The notes below the pieces were generated by a model. The model did not search any database and was not told where the DNA came from. It was given only the letters and a program-made list of their open reading frames with translations. 46,747 bases of DNA, taken from IMG/VR virus record IMGVR_UViG_3300012936_000028, positions 1 to 46,747 of that record; one strand, given 5' to 3'. Source of the stretch: a virus. Positions 17,399 to 46,747 of this stretch are shown here, piece after piece. Position numbers and translations under genes: made by a program. The number at the start of each line of letters is the position of its first letter. The first letter of the stretch is position 1.

Positions 17399-20300
17399 TA
17401 TAAAACCTCTATGCTAATATAATAGTTGTAGCTTTTATCACTATCACTCTGAAGAGACTCAATATTACTATTTCTTATTCTAATAGCACTTATATCGTCT
17501 GCTTTTGCAAAAAGCTTTCTATTTATTGCAATACTAAAGACATCATAATAAATATTAGGAACTAAAGACTTAGCTATGTTTGTTATTGAAGTTTCTTCAT
17601 CTAAGTTTAATAAAAACTTTTTGTAAAATTCTTGCATGTTAATCATTTTTAAATCTTGATCAAGATTAATAATGTTGTCTTTTCTAGTATTAAAATCATT
17701 AATATTTGATTTATAGTCATCAAAAATCTTTATTAAATCATCCAGTTTCAAAGAAGAGATGAGGCTAAGAGTTTTAGTGTCTATTAGATTTGATACATCA
17801 AAGTCTACATCTTTAACATTTTCATCAAGTGGACTTTGTGTAACAAAGTTTATATCTTTTAATGAAGAAGAAATTCTAGCATCTGTTACTGCTTTATTAC
17901 TAATTTGTGTAATCAAACTACTATCTATTGACAAGGATTTTCTAATCATAATTTCTTCAACAACTTTATTAACTTCAAAAAGTGCAGTGTCAATATTTAC
18001 AACGCTATATCTCTCAGATAATTTTTGAGTATCATTAAAAAATCCTATACTGTCTTGAAAAGAATCAGCATTAGAAAAGTTACTAGTAACATTTGTCAAC
18101 AAAGGACAATAATAAAAGCTTTCAGACTGGTATTCTATTTCTGGAAATTTTAAGTTTACAGGAAGTATATTTATCTTGAGTAAGCCTCTAGGGCCTATTT
18201 TTTTAGCTGTTTTAAAACTTATGGGTATTTTTATGATGTCTAGATTATTAACATTATTACCTAAAACCTTTGTTTCAGATATGTACTGCAAGCCTTTTTT
18301 AAAACTTTTAAACTTATTTTCATAAAACAATTTTTTACCATTGAACACGTTCAAGTTTTTATATTTATCTAGATTGTTTCTAAAGTTATTGTTTTTTATA
18401 AATGTTTCACTAAATAAGTTTTTATAAAATATTTTTTCTTGAATTTCTTTTGAAAGATAATTTTGATAGAATTCGTCTTTTATTAGACTAATAAAATCTT
18501 CTTTACTAACATCGAATCCTTCAATTCGATTTGCTTCTTCAATTATCTTGTCTATACTTTCATTAAATTCTTCTATGTTTTTATTTCTTGAAGTTAAATT
18601 GTCTTCAAAATTCAAAAAATAACCATGAATTATATCATGACATAAAGCATTTGAAATATCACAATTATTTAAAATTTTATAAGAATTTTGCAGCTCAACT
18701 GATCTTTTTGTATAGATTTCTTGATCACTTCTATTTTGTCTAAATTGCTCTAAATCATAAAAAAGGTTACTTTGTTTTAAACTTTTTTCTTCATCAGTTA
18801 TAATATTGAGTATTTTTTTAATATCACTGACAGCCATTTTCTTGTTGTCATTTACACCTACAAAAGTTGTAATACAATCACCACTATTTTTAATTTTATT
18901 TATAATTATTGTCAAGTAGTTTTCATAAGAATCTAAAAAGACTGAGGCGTAAGCTTTTAAAATATCTTTTACAGTTTTTATAAAAAATTCATTTTGATCA
19001 ATAAAACTTAAAACGTCACTGATATTATTAAAATTACTAGTTTCAACATTAAAAATTTTCATAATATCAAAGCAAATTTGAGTTAACAAATTAGAAAAAG
19101 TATGACTTTTCTCTGCAAGATAAAAATAACTAAAAGGTATTATCACACTATCATCTTTGTAAGGAAGGTCTGGTTCAACTCTTATTTTATTAATTAGCGT
19201 GCCATCACCAGTATATCTAGATGTAGGCTTTTTATAGTTTAAATAACTTATTTTAAGATCGCCTGTTGTATTGTTTAAGTTGTCTAAATAGCTGTAGCCT
19301 TTTCCTACTAGCTTATTATCTTCTGTTTGTTCATAGAAGCATATTCCGGTCTCTTTTTTGTTGATATAAATATCATAATCATAAGCTAAAACAGAGCCTA
19401 AAAGTGCCAATGAATCTTTAAATCTGTCTACAACATCTTCTGAATTGCTAGTTAAACTTTTTCTATTACTGGTAAATACAATGTCTTGAGGAAGATCAAA
19501 GTTGCTTTTTTTTAGCGGGAAAGTAAGTGTTGAAATAAAACCGTCAGCAATATTAAATGTAATACCTCCATCACCATCAGTTGTTGTTATACTTGAAAGC
19601 AAATTTCTGCTATCCTTAAAAGACTTTACGTTTCTAAAAACATAATTCTTCTGGCAGTGTATATTTTTTTGATTATATATTAGTCTTGTTATTTCTTTAG
19701 CAAATGATTTTGAGTAAACTTTTTCTAGATGCTTATAAAACTCATAATTTGAACTATCAGATGAGACTTTTTCTTCTTGATTTAAAGTTTCAGGTTTGAC
19801 ATTTAAACCAGAAATCTGTTCATGTAGCCCTGACATTTTCATTAATGCATTAGATAAAATCATTTTAACTATTTTATTGATATTGTCAACATCATTAGAG
19901 TTTTTGTCTAATAAAGCAGTTGCCAGTAAAACATCAAATCCAAAGTAAGAATCATCTAGATATTCACCTTTTTCAAATATTTTTACATTATCACTTATAA
20001 TTCTTTTAAATACTGTAGACTTATCCCTTGCAAAAGAGTTTGTGTATATTTTAGACAAAAATTCTCTATATCTCTCTGAAGAAAATATGTGTTTTTTACT
20101 TAACATTTCTTGATTATAATAATTACTAGAAGAATTTTTGACATCTGCAAAAGAAGTAACAAAATTATTTTTATATGATTTTTTATCAAATATAAAAGGG
20201 CTTTCTTCAAAAGTATCAATACTCGTTTCTTTATTGTTGCCATACAAAAGAACAAACTGGTATTCCGCGTTTAGTTTTGACTGGCACTTTTGAAGAAATT

Positions 20301-36607: not shown

Positions 36608-38473
36608 TTATCCGTTTCTAACTACGATATCATAATCTAAATGTTTAAGTTCAAAAATACCGCCTCTTTTTGGAAAAACAAAACCATTTAAAAATTCTTG
36701 TTTAGGAGAAAACATGTTATTAGAGTAAGTAATATTAATCTCGTCAAATTCATCAAAAAAGTTATCTTGAAAAGATTTTGAACGAATAATATTCTCAGGC
36801 AATGTAATTAAGCTAGCTACACCATCTGTATTTAAAGTAATATTTATAATATCATTAACATTAATTGCTTCATTTATTTGTAATGTATCAAACCTCATGT
36901 TTTCATCTATTCTTGTTATTAGATCATCTAAAACGCTTTCAACGATAAAACCTGATTTAACTGACACTGTTAAGTCAATTGAAAAATTGTATATTGGTGT
37001 ATCGATTATGTTAAAACTGTCTCCTAAAACTCTAAATTGATTAATATAAGTTTTTAAGTTCTTTTTTAATGCATCGTTTGAATTAACGTAAAAACCTGTT
37101 TGATCTTTACATACAATATAAAGATCTTTTGTTAAATTCGTAAAAGGATTTTCTAGTATTGCAATTTTATGAACTTTGCCATAATCGCTTGGCATCGTGT
37201 ATATTCTTGATATAAGATCTTTTTCATTTACTACTCTATTCTGAGAAACAATACTTGAAGGAATTTGCAACTTTAATTCTTCGATAGTTAATCTATTAGT
37301 TCCACCAATTGCTTTTTGTTCGTTGACGACATCAAGTGAACCTTCTATTTCATCTAAAATAGTATCAATATCACTCCGGCTATCAGAAACATTTGGCAAA
37401 ACAATTATTGATTTTTCTATGTTAACAATACTTTCAGCTGGAACGTTTGTTTGAATTCCTCCACCGTGTACATATGTAATAGTCACTGTCTTGCCAGCAG
37501 GGGAAACACCTAATGTATTAGACGTGATTAATTTGTTAGGGTCAAGTGATTTACTCAAGTCGTAATCTCTATGTTTTAAAGGTAAAAGCAGATCTTCAGG
37601 ATTAGTTAAAATATTATCTTCTATTTTTTTTCCTTTGCCGTTTCCAAATCTTATTACAGATGTGTTGTTATTAAAATTATTTTCTAAAACATATCTAAAA
37701 GGTGCAGTTGTTGGATATAAATAATTTTCGTTAGCATTTTCAACTTTTTTATAAATTGTGTTTTGACTTAAAAAGTCAACTTCATAATATTCATTTAGAT
37801 CGTTATCAACTACTTTAAGTATTTTTTGAACGTTTGTGTTGTTTAACTGGTATGATAAAAATAGATCTTCATTGTTTCCTGAGAAGCTTACAGTTTCTGT
37901 AGTTACTTCACCTGATGTGCATAAACCTTTTTTTTCTAAAATTAGTGTCAACGGTAAGCCCTCATCATCAGTCTCTGATACTGTTTTTTTAGGGCCTATT
38001 CTAAAATCAACATCTTCTGTAAGAATAAAGGATGGGCCTTCATTTGAAGATAGTTGTGTGCCTTTTTTAATTATAGGCAGCATAATAGGGTCTGGCTTTA
38101 ATAAATTAACGCTTTCTGCATTGCTATCTAAATCAACTTCAATATAAAAACTTACATAAGCACTTGAAGGTGAAGCATTTCCGCCTTTAATACCTGCACG
38201 TCTAAGATGACTAGTAATATTTTGATTATTTGTAGCAGTCTCAAAATTCAATTCATTAAATTGCTGTTCTGTATAAAAAGCTAATGAGTCGCCAACAATT
38301 GCTGCAAAGTCTAACAACATGCCTCCGAGAGACGCTTCAGAAAAGTCATTGATTTGATCTTTAAAATTTGATTTTGCGTAAGAAAGAAGCTCTTTCCTAA
38401 AGTCTGTAAACGTCTTGTTTACATATTGGTTTTTTCTTTGATTTTCTAATTTTTCTTCAATGTTTATGCTCAT
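36608..38473 (-). CDS. 6: Baseplate wedge protein, gp6/Baseplate_J-like
   Basis: A 621-residue protein of the T4 gp6 type (Baseplate_J superfamily), which forms the ring around the baseplate hub with gp25. The N-terminus has the usual FTDFRKELLSYAKSNFKDQI segment, followed by LGGMLLDFAAIVGDSLAFYT, a signature of this family. The centre has a Gly-rich VTITYVHGGGIQTNVPAES strand pair. The region IGGTNRLTIEELKLQIPSSI followed by VVNEKDLISRIYTMPSDYGK matches the conserved core just before the C-terminal domain. The length is close to T4 gp6 (660). The ATG overlaps the gp25-like stop by one base (TAATG), as expected for wedge partners made together. Confidence 0.9.
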   Translation of the reverse strand: MSINIEEKLENQRKNQYVNKTFTDFRKELLSYAKSNFKDQINDFSEASLGGMLLDFAAIVGDSLAFYTEQQFNELNFETATNNQNITSHLRRAGIKGGNASPSSAYVSFYIEVDLDSNAESVNLLKPDPIMLPIIKKGTQLSSNEGPSFILTEDVDFRIGPKKTVSETDDEGLPLTLILEKKGLCTSGEVTTETVSFSGNNEDLFLSYQLNNTNVQKILKVVDNDLNEYYEVDFLSQNTIYKKVENANENYLYPTTAPFRYVLENNFNNNTSVIRFGNGKGKKIEDNILTNPEDLLLPLKHRDYDLSKSLDPNKLITSNTLGVSPAGKTVTITYVHGGGIQTNVPAESIVNIEKSIIVLPNVSDSRSDIDTILDEIEGSLDVVNEQKAIGGTNRLTIEELKLQIPSSIVSQNRVVNEKDLISRIYTMPSDYGKVHKIAILENPFTNLTKDLYIVCKDQTGFYVNSNDALKKNLKTYINQFRVLGDSFNIIDTPIYNFSIDLTVSVKSGFIVESVLDDLITRIDENMRFDTLQINEAINVNDIINITLNTDGVASLITLPENIIRSKSFQDNFFDEFDEINITYSNNMFSPKQEFLNGFVFPKRGGIFELKHLDYDIVVRNG

Positions 38474-38979
38474 TATATAGACCCTTTAATTAATAATTCA
38501 ATAGTATTTGGTATATCTTCTATTCCTAAAATGTCTAAAGTATATGTAATAGTAATTAAAAAAAGATCAGCTTCACTACTCACATCTGTAGGAACTAAAT
38601 CGCTTTGAAAATCTTTTAGTTTAATACTTGGAAAGTATTTTTTTGTATTTTTTTTAATATCTTCCATTGCTATAGCTTCTTTTTCTCCTAAAGAAATACC
38701 CGTGCTATTGTAAATATTAAATATTGAAAGACCAAAATCAGGCTTGCATAAAAGCTCACCTTTCTTAGTAGATAAAAAGAATTTATAGTTATTTGAAATT
38801 TGTTTTTGTACTTCAAAATTCATAGAAAATAAGTCTTCACTAACTCTTCTACCTTTTGACAAAGGAAGTCTTATACCTAGTGGCTTTTTAGAAGTTAAAG
38901 GTAGATTTATAGCCTGATTTTGCTCTAGTAAATCTTCTTTTTCTGTTACACCTGTGTTTAAATAGTCTATTGTTGCCAT
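38473..38979 (-). CDS. 25: Baseplate wedge protein, gp25-like
   Basis: A 168-residue protein of the gp25/GPW family, which together with gp6 makes the inner baseplate ring and nucleates the sheath. Family features are the N-terminal KPLGIRLPLSKGRR loop, FEVQKQISNNYKFFLSTKKG, and the core GELLCKPDFGLSIFNIY, followed by a helix with KEAIAMEDIKKNTKKYFPSI. It is slightly longer than T4 gp25 (132). The ATG at 38979 follows a strong GAGGTG and lies 20 bases downstream of a TATAAATA box. It is the first gene after a real gap, so it may start a transcription unit covering the tail block. Confidence 0.92.
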   Translation of the reverse strand: MATIDYLNTGVTEKEDLLEQNQAINLPLTSKKPLGIRLPLSKGRRVSEDLFSMNFEVQKQISNNYKFFLSTKKGELLCKPDFGLSIFNIYNSTGISLGEKEAIAMEDIKKNTKKYFPSIKLKDFQSDLVPTDVSSEADLFLITITYTLDILGIEDIPNTIELLIKGSI

Positions 38980-38993
38980 AAATTCACCTCAAG

Positions 38994-39007
38994 TATAAAT
39001 ATTTATA
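38994..39007 (-). promoter_or_regulatory. Candidate late promoter within 14-bp palindrome before gp25-like gene
   Basis: TATAAATATTTATA is a perfect 14-bp palindrome. On the coding strand its first eight bases, 39007 to 39000, are TATAAATA, the exact T4 late -10 consensus. That box ends 20 bases before the gp25-like ATG, and a GAGGTG ribosome binding site follows. The gp55-like sigma factor encoded upstream could read such a box. The CTTGAG(G)TG sequence occurs on both sides as a direct repeat. Because it is a palindrome, the reverse strand also carries the box. Confidence 0.5.
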
Positions 39008-39020
39008 AGAAAAGCTACAC

Positions 39021-40997
39021 TCAAGATGTTTTACTAATTTTGCTCAATATTTTATCAATATTGTCTTCTATTGACCGTAATCTTTGGGACAATTCTTCAT
39101 CTCTTTTCATTTTAACATCATTAATTGAGCTCTCAAGGTTACTTTGTATAAGTAAAAATTCAAGATTAAATTCTTCTATCGCAGCTAACATATTAGCACA
39201 TAAAACTGCGACAGAAGACGTTATAGGTGCTAATGCAGTAGCAACTTGTGCTCCAGTAACTGGATTTGCTGCAGTTGCAGGTGTGCTTAAAGGTGTAAGA
39301 CTGGCTGCAGTTGCTGTTGCAATACCGTTTGCTGATGTTGTTATTTGACTTTTAAGATTATTAGTTAAAGACTCAAAACTATCAACAATTGTTCTATGTG
39401 TTTCTCTAAACAAGTCTTTGGTTTTATCCATGTCTTCCCTGTTCACATCAAGAATTTCATTTAAATATTCTTTTAGTTGATTTCCTAGCACAAGTTGCTG
39501 ACTGGTTGAACTTTCACCTAAAATTACTAGTGCACCATTATATTCCTTGTTTTCGTCTAGTTGATTAGACAGATTATTTTCTATAAGACTTTTTTTTATT
39601 TTATAATATTCACCATTTCCAATAAAAATTCTGTTTGAATCTAAAAACATATCACCGTTATTATTTATTCTAAATATTGAATTTAAATTCTTGTTAAATA
39701 TACTGTTATAGTATTCTTTAATAATTTTAACGCCATCACCACCTACCCTTGAATATAAATTAATATTACTAGAAGAAATATCAACTGTTGGATTTTTAAT
39801 AGAAGGCAATATACTGTTTCTATTTTTAATATAATAAAATGTTTTATATTCTTTTGCCTCGTCCAAGAGACTTGAATTTGTAATTTTTCCCTTAACAGTC
39901 ACATCGCTGGTTACATTTAAGTTAAAAAGTGTAGAGTAATTTTTTAAAAATAAAGATTCATTATTACCAGCTTCACAGATAGATATTTTTGAAGCATCTT
40001 CTACTATACTAAAAACACCTTCATTAACGCTTTCAGGAATTACTTCATCAGAGAAAACAGAAAACAAATTAGGATTTTTAAAATTTTCTTCTTCGCCGTC
40101 GAAAAGAAGTTTTATTGACTTATTTGGGTGACTAGGAAAATATGCATTAAAAACTTGAAGCTTAGAAGTTTCTGCTTGATTATTGTAAAAGTTACCGTTT
40201 ACTAAACTAAAAGTATTTTCTGCAAAGGCTCCTGCACCAGCAGAAATGCAAACTTCTCCACTTCCTTTCTTGTTTTTACTATACCCACTAGAATAATTAT
40301 TAGTTGTAAGCTTTAACAGCGTATTATTTGAGCCTTGAAATACTAAATCATCAGAATTAGGCATAATTGCAGGTATACATGTGTTCGGATATTTGCTTTT
40401 TAAATCTTTAATTAATTCAATTTCGTCTGTGTTAAGTTCAAAGGTTGTTTCACCAAAATCGTTTGTTGGCTTAATAATGCTGTTTTCTGCAATTTTTTTA
40501 AGATTTTTAATATCAAGCTTTTCACTCGTTGAAAAGTCATTGATGTCTATATTTTTGCTATCAACTAAGCTTTTTAAGTTAAAAGCAAAGTCTCTGTCAT
40601 TATGTGTATAGTTAACGTCCTCTGTGTAATTTAAGGCATGAACTCTACTAAGCCAGTAAGAATTAACTTTATAAGAATCAGACTTTTTGTTATATGGATC
40701 TTTAAATACCCAAACATATTCGCCAGGTTTAACAGGCATTTTAATATGTGACGAGAAAAAAGGAAGTGATACAAAAGTATTTGTGTTTTCTTGTGAGTCC
40801 AGCATTATACTTTTAGAAAAAATAGTTCCGCTTGGCAGGCTTTCTAGAAATAAAATTAAACCTAGATCAGGAGTTCCTTCTATGACTGCAGGAAAGAAAG
40901 ATGAAATAAGACCTCTATCGTTAAGGTCACTATAAATTTTTTGTGAGTTTGCTCTTTGATTCTCTATTGTATAGAGTACTCTTGATTTTAAAAACAT
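39021..40997 (-). CDS. Baseplate hub/spike protein with gp5-type OB fold
   Basis: A 658-residue protein likely to form the central baseplate hub or spike. The N-terminal 150 residues look like the OB-fold domain of gp5/VgrG-type hubs. They include FFPAVIEGTPDLGLILFLES, then LPFFSSHIKMPVKPGEYVWV and YWLSRVHALNYTEDVNYTHND. No lysozyme domain is visible, unlike T4 gp5. The C-terminal 150 residues are helical or coiled, with an Ala/Thr-rich stretch near 570-600. The ATG at 40997 follows the small terminase stop after 9 bases; the ribosome binding site is weak (AGAG). It precedes gp25 and gp6 homologues, as expected for a baseplate cluster. Confidence 0.75.
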   Translation of the reverse strand: MFLKSRVLYTIENQRANSQKIYSDLNDRGLISSFFPAVIEGTPDLGLILFLESLPSGTIFSKSIMLDSQENTNTFVSLPFFSSHIKMPVKPGEYVWVFKDPYNKKSDSYKVNSYWLSRVHALNYTEDVNYTHNDRDFAFNLKSLVDSKNIDINDFSTSEKLDIKNLKKIAENSIIKPTNDFGETTFELNTDEIELIKDLKSKYPNTCIPAIMPNSDDLVFQGSNNTLLKLTTNNYSSGYSKNKKGSGEVCISAGAGAFAENTFSLVNGNFYNNQAETSKLQVFNAYFPSHPNKSIKLLFDGEEENFKNPNLFSVFSDEVIPESVNEGVFSIVEDASKISICEAGNNESLFLKNYSTLFNLNVTSDVTVKGKITNSSLLDEAKEYKTFYYIKNRNSILPSIKNPTVDISSSNINLYSRVGGDGVKIIKEYYNSIFNKNLNSIFRINNNGDMFLDSNRIFIGNGEYYKIKKSLIENNLSNQLDENKEYNGALVILGESSTSQQLVLGNQLKEYLNEILDVNREDMDKTKDLFRETHRTIVDSFESLTNNLKSQITTSANGIATATAASLTPLSTPATAANPVTGAQVATALAPITSSVAVLCANMLAAIEEFNLEFLLIQSNLESSINDVKMKRDEELSQRLRSIEDNIDKILSKISKTS

Positions 40998-44869: not shown

Positions 44870-45703
44870 CTATTTGCAATAGTCAGTATTTTTAAATTCA
44901 CAAAACATACACGAGTCTCTATTTTTTAAAAAAAACTTTTTTTCTACAGTTTTAATCATACTTCTAACTAGCTTTTGTGATCTTTCTAAGTTTTTTGGAC
45001 CTGAAGAAACTTTTACAAGTTGACATGATTTTCCTGTTGTTTTAACCTTTTTAAGCAAGACAAAACCACACTGTATATCTTTCATATCTATATTATTTTT
45101 AGTTCCCCAAAAGTGTTTATAAAGTATAACTTGCGCTTGTGTTTTAAAGTCTCTTTGTTTATCTAAAGACCAACCTCTTCCATTGGAAGTTTTCCAATCT
45201 AAAACCCAATACTTATATTTGTCTTTATGTGGAACCTTTATAATGCAATCGATATAGCCTTTAAACTTTGTATCAATGTTTTCTATTCTTTCATATAAAG
45301 CTTCTTCCGCTGATTGAAATTCCCAATTAGGAAATGTTTCGTCTAAAAAACTAGGAATAGAACTAATGCTTGCTTCTGCCCACTTTAGCCAATCTTTTAA
45401 CTTGTTATGTTTATATTTCCAACCTTGTATTTGTGCTTTCTGGCTTTGCAGCTGAATAAAGTCTTCTGAATCAAAACCGTGTTCATCCCAAGCTAACTCA
45501 ATCTTGTTTTGTGCTTCTTTAATTTTAAGTTCTTTTGTTTTAAGATAGTGTTCACATGCATCGTGGATTATTGTCCCGTAATGCAAATGCGGACTTTCTT
45601 CAAACGTAGATAACTTATCTATGTATAATAATTTATGCCGCCAAGGACATTCTTTCCATTGACGAACTTCTGAATAAGAGACATGCTCTTTTAAAATAGT
45701 CAT
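44870..45703 (-). CDS. Cas4/RecB-like PD-(D/E)XK nuclease with four-cysteine cluster
   Basis: A 277-residue nuclease of the RecB/Cas4/AddB type. Motifs are SYSEVRQWKECPWRHKL with Cys19, HYGTIIHDACE with His47, a catalytic Asp in GYIDCII, Asp169 and Lys171 in VLDWKTS, and QAQVILYKHF (QxxxY). Cys265, Cys268 and Cys276 at the C-terminus (CMFCEF, DYCK) complete the pattern of a 4Fe-4S cluster with Cys19. The family degrades or trims DNA ends and acts in recombination. The frame is open from a TTG at 45721, but the ATG at 45703 with GTGAGG upstream is preferred. That ribosome binding site lies in a hairpin (45708-45745), suggesting translational control. No CRISPR genes are near, so a Cas role is not implied. 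Confidence 0.88.
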   Translation of the reverse strand: MTILKEHVSYSEVRQWKECPWRHKLLYIDKLSTFEESPHLHYGTIIHDACEHYLKTKELKIKEAQNKIELAWDEHGFDSEDFIQLQSQKAQIQGWKYKHNKLKDWLKWAEASISSIPSFLDETFPNWEFQSAEEALYERIENIDTKFKGYIDCIIKVPHKDKYKYWVLDWKTSNGRGWSLDKQRDFKTQAQVILYKHFWGTKNNIDMKDIQCGFVLLKKVKTTGKSCQLVKVSSGPKNLERSQKLVRSMIKTVEKKFFLKNRDSCMFCEFKNTDYCK

Positions 45704-45707
45704 AACA

Positions 45708-45745
45708 GACCTCACTTTCAATATTATTATAATAAAAGCGAGGTC
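45708..45745 (-). promoter_or_regulatory. Hairpin sequestering the nuclease ribosome binding site, with promoter box in loop
   Basis: In minus-strand RNA, bases 45745-45735 (GACCUCGCUUU) pair with 45718-45708 (AAAGUGAGGUC) to give an 11-bp stem with one G-U wobble and a 16-base, almost GC-free loop. The 3' arm contains the GUGAGG ribosome binding site of the nuclease (ATG at 45703). The loop contains TATAAT at 45731-45726. A start site 6-8 bases downstream would make RNA lacking the 5' arm and therefore unfolded. Read-through RNA from the fibre gene would be folded and poorly translated. No U-tract follows, so it is not a standard terminator. Confidence 0.6.
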
Positions 45746-45760
45746 AATTTATAAAACTAT

Positions 45761-46747
45761 TTAGCTGATAATTGCTTTTGAAATCAAGCACCAGTTTGTG
45801 CCATCGTATATTAAAGTTGCTGTTGACTTATTAGCGAGTGAAATATCAGCGCCATCTAGACAAAGAACATCGTTGGAGCTTGAATTACCTGCATTTGTTA
45901 AGGTAAGTGTTCCACCTGATCCACTATGTTGCAATATCAACATCATGCCCGGTTTGCCGCCTGTAATCTTAGCAATTGAGTTATTACCTGAATGAGGTGT
46001 AATTTTTTGATATCCCAATGTTGCAGCAAACTCAGTTGCACCTGATGCTAAGGCAATTGTATCTGGATGATAAACAGTTGAGCCAAGCTGAAGCATTGCA
46101 GGCGTCGAATCAGAATTATCTCCTGTAGAGCCTTCATTTTTATAGTCAAACTTAAACTTTTCTGCTGAAGGTGTTGCCATCTTGTGCCAAAGTCTAAAGT
46201 AATCAGCAGACTCATCATAAATAAGACCCAAGAACTTGTCTGAACCACCATCACGATGCTTAGCATATATACCAATATCTCTGGCAACCTCATCAATTAC
46301 GTTATTTCCAGAACTTATTAAAACTAGTGGATCAACAACTGTTAGGGTTGAACCTCCACTTTCGAGACCACTACTTACCGTTAAAGAATTGGCAACAGTG
46401 ACTGAGCCTGAAAACGCAGAAGTTCCTGTTCCTGCAACAGTAATATTACCGCCAACAGTTGTATTACCTGATGTTCCTGCAACAACAAACTTATCCTGAT
46501 TAACTTTCAAAGATCCTGAGGATGCAGCTACTTCAAACTTTGAATTGCTTCCAAAGGTTCCGTTTATGGCAAAATTTCCATCGATAGTAGTTGCGCCAGT
46601 TACGCCTAACGTTCCTCCAACTGTTGCATCATTAGTTACTCCAACTGAAGCCAGTGTGGATGCTCCAGTCACACCTAATGTTCCTCCGACTGTTGCATTT
46701 GTGCTCACTGTAGCTGCTCCAGTAACTGCTAATGTCGAACCGTTAAA
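45761..46747 (-). CDS. Tail fibre C-terminal part with GGTLGVTG repeats (5' end cut by window)
   Basis: The frame is open to the window edge and yields 328 residues. The GTG at 46708 is in the middle of the repeat and is not the likely start. The visible N-terminal part carries near-repeats of TNATVGGTLGVTGAST (about 24-residue spacing) followed by NGTFGSNSKFEV and similar turns, as in beta-helical phage fibres. From about residue 135 the repeat gives way to a globular tip (DEVARDIGIYAKHRDGGSDK). The end reads SLANKSTATLIYDGTNWCLI, a closing strand set common in phage fibre and appendage proteins. The gene ends with TAA at 45761, before the hairpin. A host-binding role is inferred. Confidence 0.8.
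   Translation of the reverse strand, partial: FNGSTLAVTGAATVSTNATVGGTLGVTGASTLASVGVTNDATVGGTLGVTGATTIDGNFAINGTFGSNSKFEVAASSGSLKVNQDKFVVAGTSGNTTVGGNITVAGTGTSAFSGSVTVANSLTVSSGLESGGSTLTVVDPLVLISSGNNVIDEVARDIGIYAKHRDGGSDKFLGLIYDESADYFRLWHKMATPSAEKFKFDYKNEGSTGDNSDSTPAMLQLGSTVYHPDTIALASGATEFAATLGYQKITPHSGNNSIAKITGGKPGMMLILQHSGSGGTLTLTNAGNSSSNDVLCLDGADISLANKSTATLIYDGTNWCLISKAIIS
46600..46747 (-). repeat. Near-repeats encoding ATVGGTLGVTGA in fibre gene
   Basis: The minus strand encodes three related blocks: LAVTGAATV, ATVGGTLGVTGAS and ATVGGTLGVTGAT. They are divergent at DNA level, so they are old duplications kept by protein structure rather than recent tandem copies. The array probably continues beyond the window edge. 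Confidence 0.7.

Follow-up and report, generated by a model that had tools for sequence, protein, structure and literature searches.

In a marine phage genome fragment, a conserved promoter of a Cas4-like nuclease gene overlaps an inverted repeat that would fold, in longer transcripts, into a hairpin covering the ribosome-binding site of the gene. We consider it likely that this hairpin is a silencer of read-through transcription at the nuclease gene. The window analyzed here is the whole stretch of 46,747 nt, positions 1 to 46,747, of the IMG/VR record IMGVR_UViG_3300012936_000028. Its source is a marine, distant relative of T4; its portal belongs to the gp20 family (protein domain search), and the nearest named phages by portal are Microcystis phage Mel-JY01 and Flavobacterium phage immuto (38 to 44% identity). 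The minus strand carries the main genes of the window; they make up a structural block, and four relatives (contigs of 95 to 240 kb) share its synteny. The nuclease is the first gene of this block and lies behind a tail-fibre-like gene (genes were called with a simple script on incomplete contigs). Its translation contains the motifs GYID and LDWKT and the cysteines C19 and CMFC...C, and Microcystis phage Mel-JY01 has a distant homologue, located a few genes after the DNA polymerase and clamp-loader genes. The features of the locus are as follows, in the direction of transcription.

45761-46747, minus strand: codirectional upstream tail-fibre-like gene, cut by the window end, with a depolymerase C-terminal domain match; presumed source of read-through
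45748-45753, minus strand: -35 element TATAAA (class consensus TGTAAA); TNTA(A/T)A or a near variant at 16-nt spacing in close relatives
45732-45747, minus strand: 16-nt promoter spacer containing the hairpin 5' arm, from leader comparison
45735-45745, minus strand: hairpin 5' arm, GACCTCGCTTT, predicted to be absent from locally started RNA
45719-45734, minus strand: 16-nt loop holding the -10 element, from sequence and pairing
45726-45731, minus strand: -10 element TATAAT, kept in leaders with and without the hairpin
45718-45719, minus strand: predicted transcription start, placed by spacing about 7 nt past the -10 element
45708-45718, minus strand: hairpin 3' arm, AAAGTGAGGTC, pairing with GACCTCGCTTT
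45710-45715, minus strand: Shine-Dalgarno (SD) sequence GTGAGG within the 3' arm, from sequence
45701-45703, minus strand: ATG start codon of the nuclease; N-terminus kept among relatives
44870-45703, minus strand: coding sequence of the PD-(D/E)XK (Cas4-like) nuclease, 277 aa; Pfam PDDEXK_1, 5e-21; PHROG exonuclease families

The minus-strand leader of the nuclease gene reads TTTATAAATTGACCTCGCTTTTATTATAATAATATTGAAAGTGAGGTCTGTTATG. An earlier note on this DNA had described an 11-bp stem, TATAAT at 45731-45726 within a 16-nt loop, and the SD sequence in the 3' arm, all of which we found exactly at these coordinates, with one G-U among the 11 pairs. The free-energy folding that it had proposed gave a structure far more stable than expected: region 45690-45770 folds at -24.9 kcal/mol, compared with -9.1 ± 2.5 kcal/mol for 200 dinucleotide shuffles, none of which was as stable as the native sequence (z = -6.2). 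In the optimal predicted fold, the start-codon region is also paired, by outer pairs, and the long transcript thus has both its SD sequence and its start-codon region in pairs, as in a T4-type switch. The predicted RNA from 45719 is structurally unremarkable (z = +0.7), and opening the SD sequence is predicted to cost 18.9 kcal/mol in the long leader versus 3.3 kcal/mol in the short one. When 765 genes of five genomes were ranked by SD occlusion, nuclease leaders were placed first (G001), second (the window), and fourth (G003).

Hairpins and palindromes were also observed at other genes. In the window, a second SD-covering hairpin (CATCTTGAGTGTA / TATACTTGAGGTG) is located in the leader (38980-39025) of the minus-strand gene at 38473-38979, with TATAAATATTTATA in its loop region; it is retained in G001, where G-U pairs have become A-U, and may be a T4-like switch driven by a late promoter. 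In G002, an 18-bp stem covers the SD sequence of a 1,079-aa gene without a PHROG match (93407-96646, minus strand), with TATAATAA in the loop. The region between the two genes of a conserved divergent pair forms a long, imperfect palindrome that carries both ribosome-binding sites; such palindromic regions lie at 17444-17780 in G001, 184130-184203 in G002, and 72714-72782 in G005.

The earlier proposal that TATAAT belongs to a promoter gains support from its conservation even in leaders that lack the hairpin and from its -35 partner, TATAAA at 45753-45748, which had been missed, as had the dependence on neighbor orientation described below. The site is not of the T4 late type (TATAAATA, with no -35 element); it is instead TATAAA-N16-TATAAT, whose class precedes replication genes. 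The spacer between the two elements holds the entire 5' arm, so RNA from this promoter cannot include that arm; with the predicted start, the promoter is thus placed as in a T4-type switch. The sequence gTGTAAAt-N16-TATAATa occurs in the sense direction upstream of many genes in G002 (240 kb) and G005 (211 kb), and the spacing between its two boxes peaks sharply at 16 nt. Genes with this promoter class include those for DNA polymerase, single-stranded DNA-binding protein (SSB), helicase, thymidylate synthase, a thymidylate kinase-like protein, HNH endonuclease, and methyltransferase. A matrix built from 28 sites of the class and applied with a cutoff of 8 bits detected 57 of the 287 upstream regions that are not late, compared with 7 when their antisense strand was scored, and none of 25 late-block regions. 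The nuclease promoter scored 6.5 to 13 bits in all five genomes, and the scoring was repeated with two more genomes. We read this class as prereplicative (early or middle), a timing that we take from the content of the genes behind it.

Signs of late promoters were sought as well. The T4 late motif TATAAATA occurs 19 times in the window, versus 13 expected by chance, and is absent from the hairpin site; a search for a T4 gp55-like late sigma factor was empty, which shows little. A candidate late-promoter motif, TATTTATAA, precedes three structural-block genes. Its overall counts are nearly equal on both strands, and the antisense control only reuses these data in reverse complement; we therefore claim no late consensus.

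Two protein scans and one DNA scan yielded 35 distinct nuclease leaders, of which 28, including that of the window, were comparable. Nearly all 28 carry a TATAAT-like -10 element 28 to 32 nt before the start codon and a TNTA(A/T)A-like box 16 nt upstream of it, the exceptions being a 17-nt spacer in L025 and a few weak boxes. Most also keep the ribosome-binding block GAAAG(T/A)GAGGTC, with or without the hairpin. A DNA-pattern scan for this SD block returned 52 stretches, 31 of which do not encode the nuclease; these 31 (L079 and 30 others) are matches to the pattern GAAAGWGAGGTCNNNNATGRC in nuclease-less contigs and probably represent chance or other strong ribosome-binding sites.

What varies is the hairpin 5' arm, which was detected (p < 0.01 against shuffled spacers) in 16 of 20 leaders with a codirectional upstream gene versus 1 of 8 with a divergent one (Fisher p = 0.002; Mann-Whitney p = 0.0004; neither corrected for relatedness). 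The codirectional gene is usually a tail fibre, and the divergent one is mostly of the same fibre family, reversed; among the relatives, fibre genes of one family lie next to the nuclease in either orientation, with exchanged C-terminal ends. Two close kin of the window (L004 and L005, approximately 87 to 88% identical) have a divergent fibre and lack the SD-covering hairpin, and the tree groups them with the window and its hairpin-bearing kin. L004 is the single divergent positive, and its AT stem stops 14 nt short of the ATG without extending to the SD sequence. Three codirectional leaders have no hairpin (L022, L025, and L030), and their upstream genes are outside the fibre family. Weaker stems were seen in L122 and L008, the latter having a shorter stem that falls below the cut by helix score and above it by SD opening. 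The tree implies at least four orientation changes and at least five hairpin changes, with at most four independent pairs, so that no phylogenetic (sign) test can reach significance.

The gain in SD occlusion on the long leader was compared across 64 genes of the promoter class in seven genomes. It amounted to 7 to 21 kcal/mol for five codirectional nucleases, 0.2 and 4.8 kcal/mol for two divergent nucleases, and a median of 0.5 kcal/mol for the 57 other genes, one of which exceeded 8 kcal/mol. By this measure, the predicted switch is specific to the sole gene of the class behind a late-type gene. In four relatives (L004, L005, L033, and L027), a gene of approximately 114 to 129 aa lies downstream of the flipped fibre and has its SD sequence under a hairpin whose sequence differs from that at the nuclease (L005, for example, has CTCCAGTAATATATT / AATATATTACTGGAG). 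Thus, the gene behind the fibre tends toward occlusion, whichever gene it is. The locus had been put forward as a possible independent example of the T4 logic in a distant relative; the logic is indeed T4-like, but the case is not isolated, as it recurs across the phage group in several registers and a similar SD-covering hairpin lies at the different gene downstream of the flipped fibre.

The pairing itself is retained across the 17 hairpin-bearing leaders, in which three stem positions vary on both sides. Because the second register is misaligned in the MAFFT leader alignment, the count was made in a table corrected for register, in which 164 of the 204 core pairs are Watson-Crick, 29 are G-U, and 11 are mismatched. 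G-U pairs break the symmetry of the DNA and keep the pairing of the RNA, and their share therefore speaks for an RNA structure over a DNA dyad. Counted from the GAAAG block, the loop registers differ by subgroup (14, 13, and 18 nt), and several registers in one spacer suggest more than one origin of the arm or repeated sliding. The C-terminal ends of the fibres are nonhomologous among hairpin-bearing loci; hence, the arm is part of the nuclease leader and not of the fibre.

On the mechanism that we favor, RNA reading through from the codirectional fibre gene would contain both arms and fold, hiding the SD sequence and start-codon region of the nuclease, so that no nuclease would be made from it. 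Transcription from the promoter that has the 5' arm in its spacer and the -10 element in the loop would start at approximately 45719, on the border of the 3' arm; the resulting leader of approximately 16 nt would be open and usable by ribosomes. That read-through RNA is silent and locally started RNA translated had already been suggested, and both the conservation of the promoter and the occurrence of the hairpin mainly at codirectional loci strongly support this; the timing is probably the reverse of that in T4. The fibre, with the syntenic structural block of four genomes, is a codirectional upstream unit of another expression class, and its gene content suggests that the presumed read-through RNA would be expressed late. 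As the promoter class precedes replication genes and not other late-block genes, we lean toward early or middle RNA that is translated and late read-through RNA that is silent. The combination of a replication-class promoter with the fibre and the downstream structural block points to a likely purpose, i.e., keeping an early or middle gene in a late block untranslated late in infection. One reason could be that a nuclease that processes DNA ends would be harmful while progeny DNA is packaged. We give roughly even weight to a scenario in which a prereplicative nuclease within the late block retains its own promoter, the hairpin that shields it from late read-through arises anew in the spacer each time a neighboring fibre comes to face the nuclease, and fibre rearrangement and insulation coevolve.

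The closest alternative is a sub-case differing in timing alone, namely, a switch with T4 timing, in which the loop promoter would be late and the silent read-through RNA early. T4 e, soc, and I-TevI share the geometry (PMC3014915, PMC2988022), but the -35/-10 class precedes replication genes and not other late-block genes, and upstream lies a tail-fibre gene that belongs to a structural block, which makes this timing unlikely. The hairpin might instead be the 3' end of the fibre transcript (a terminator or exonuclease barrier), with only incidental overlap of the ribosome-binding site, given that it follows 15 nt after the fibre stop codon in the window and that a hairpin is present at another fibre-downstream gene too. 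However, no terminator-like site was found in 45600-45860 and no U-tract follows the stem, the 3' arm is a conserved SD sequence present even where no fibre reads in, and the arm tracks this sequence whereas the fibre C termini are nonhomologous. We regard this explanation as quite improbable, and the hairpin may act as a barrier alongside silencing.

Stems that occlude ribosome-binding sites are common among switches responding to a ligand, a protein, or temperature, and an AT-rich TATAAAT upstream might let the nuclease mRNA start before the 5' arm. Such a conditional switch is very improbable: an Rfam search of the window gave no matches and hence no known leader or riboswitch, the upstream TATAAA stands at -35 spacing from the -10 element in nearly every leader, the loop apart from the -10 element is not conserved like a binding site, and loss of the hairpin at divergent loci would be left unexplained. 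We find scarcely any room for an inverted repeat that works as a DNA operator (a repressor dyad or nuclease autoregulation), even though the repeat spans the promoter and, in T4, the promoter of the nuclease I-TevI is repressed by I-TevI itself (PMC2988022). Against it stand the 29 G-U pairs among the 204 core pairs, the variable arm spacing (13- to 18-nt loops), the absence of the repeat at divergent loci with the same promoter, and the result that the tested genomes contain no further complete copy of the arms. The pairing counts, the missing terminator-like site, and the single copy of the arms led us to reject terminator, operator, and recombination-site readings and to retain the read-through silencer.

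Beyond folding alone, the comparison of leaders places promoter-in-hairpin insulation in phages far removed from the T4 relatives that served to elucidate it. It amounts to a natural experiment in which the gene and its promoter are the same, the neighbor is flipped, and the hairpin is gained or lost. This suggests that the trick serves to separate genes that differ in timing class, whichever way round, and such insulation may make cassette rearrangements (e.g., fibre swapping) tolerable. In the paper collection searched, no description of an early-promoter version of the T4 switch turned up.

Hairpins that occlude ribosome-binding sites and have internal late promoters are known from T4 e, soc, 49, and I-TevI, from segB, and from Aeh1 mobE (PMC3014915, PMC2988022). 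In T4 e, soc, 49, and I-TevI, the long early RNA is silent and the late RNA is translated, and for T4 lysozyme the structure cuts synthesis approximately 100-fold (PMC3014915, PMC2988022). As in these cases, the SD sequence of the nuclease is predicted to be hidden in long upstream RNA, and a promoter in the hairpin region would yield RNA that lacks the 5' strand, which is translated in T4 and predicted to be so here. Unlike in T4, the promoter is a -35/-10 promoter of the replication-gene class with the 5' arm encoded in its spacer, the read-through would come from a tail-fibre gene, the gene encodes a Cas4-like nuclease, and the timing is probably reversed. In IS10 and IS50, read-through RNA from external promoters hides the transposase ribosome-binding site by folding, and RNA from the internal promoter does not. 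The nuclease leader resembles these elements in that outside read-through RNA would fold over the ribosome-binding site and internal-promoter RNA would be open. The arm in IS10 and IS50 is part of the end of a mobile element, whereas here the gene is a resident phage gene and the arm comes and goes with the orientation of its neighbor.
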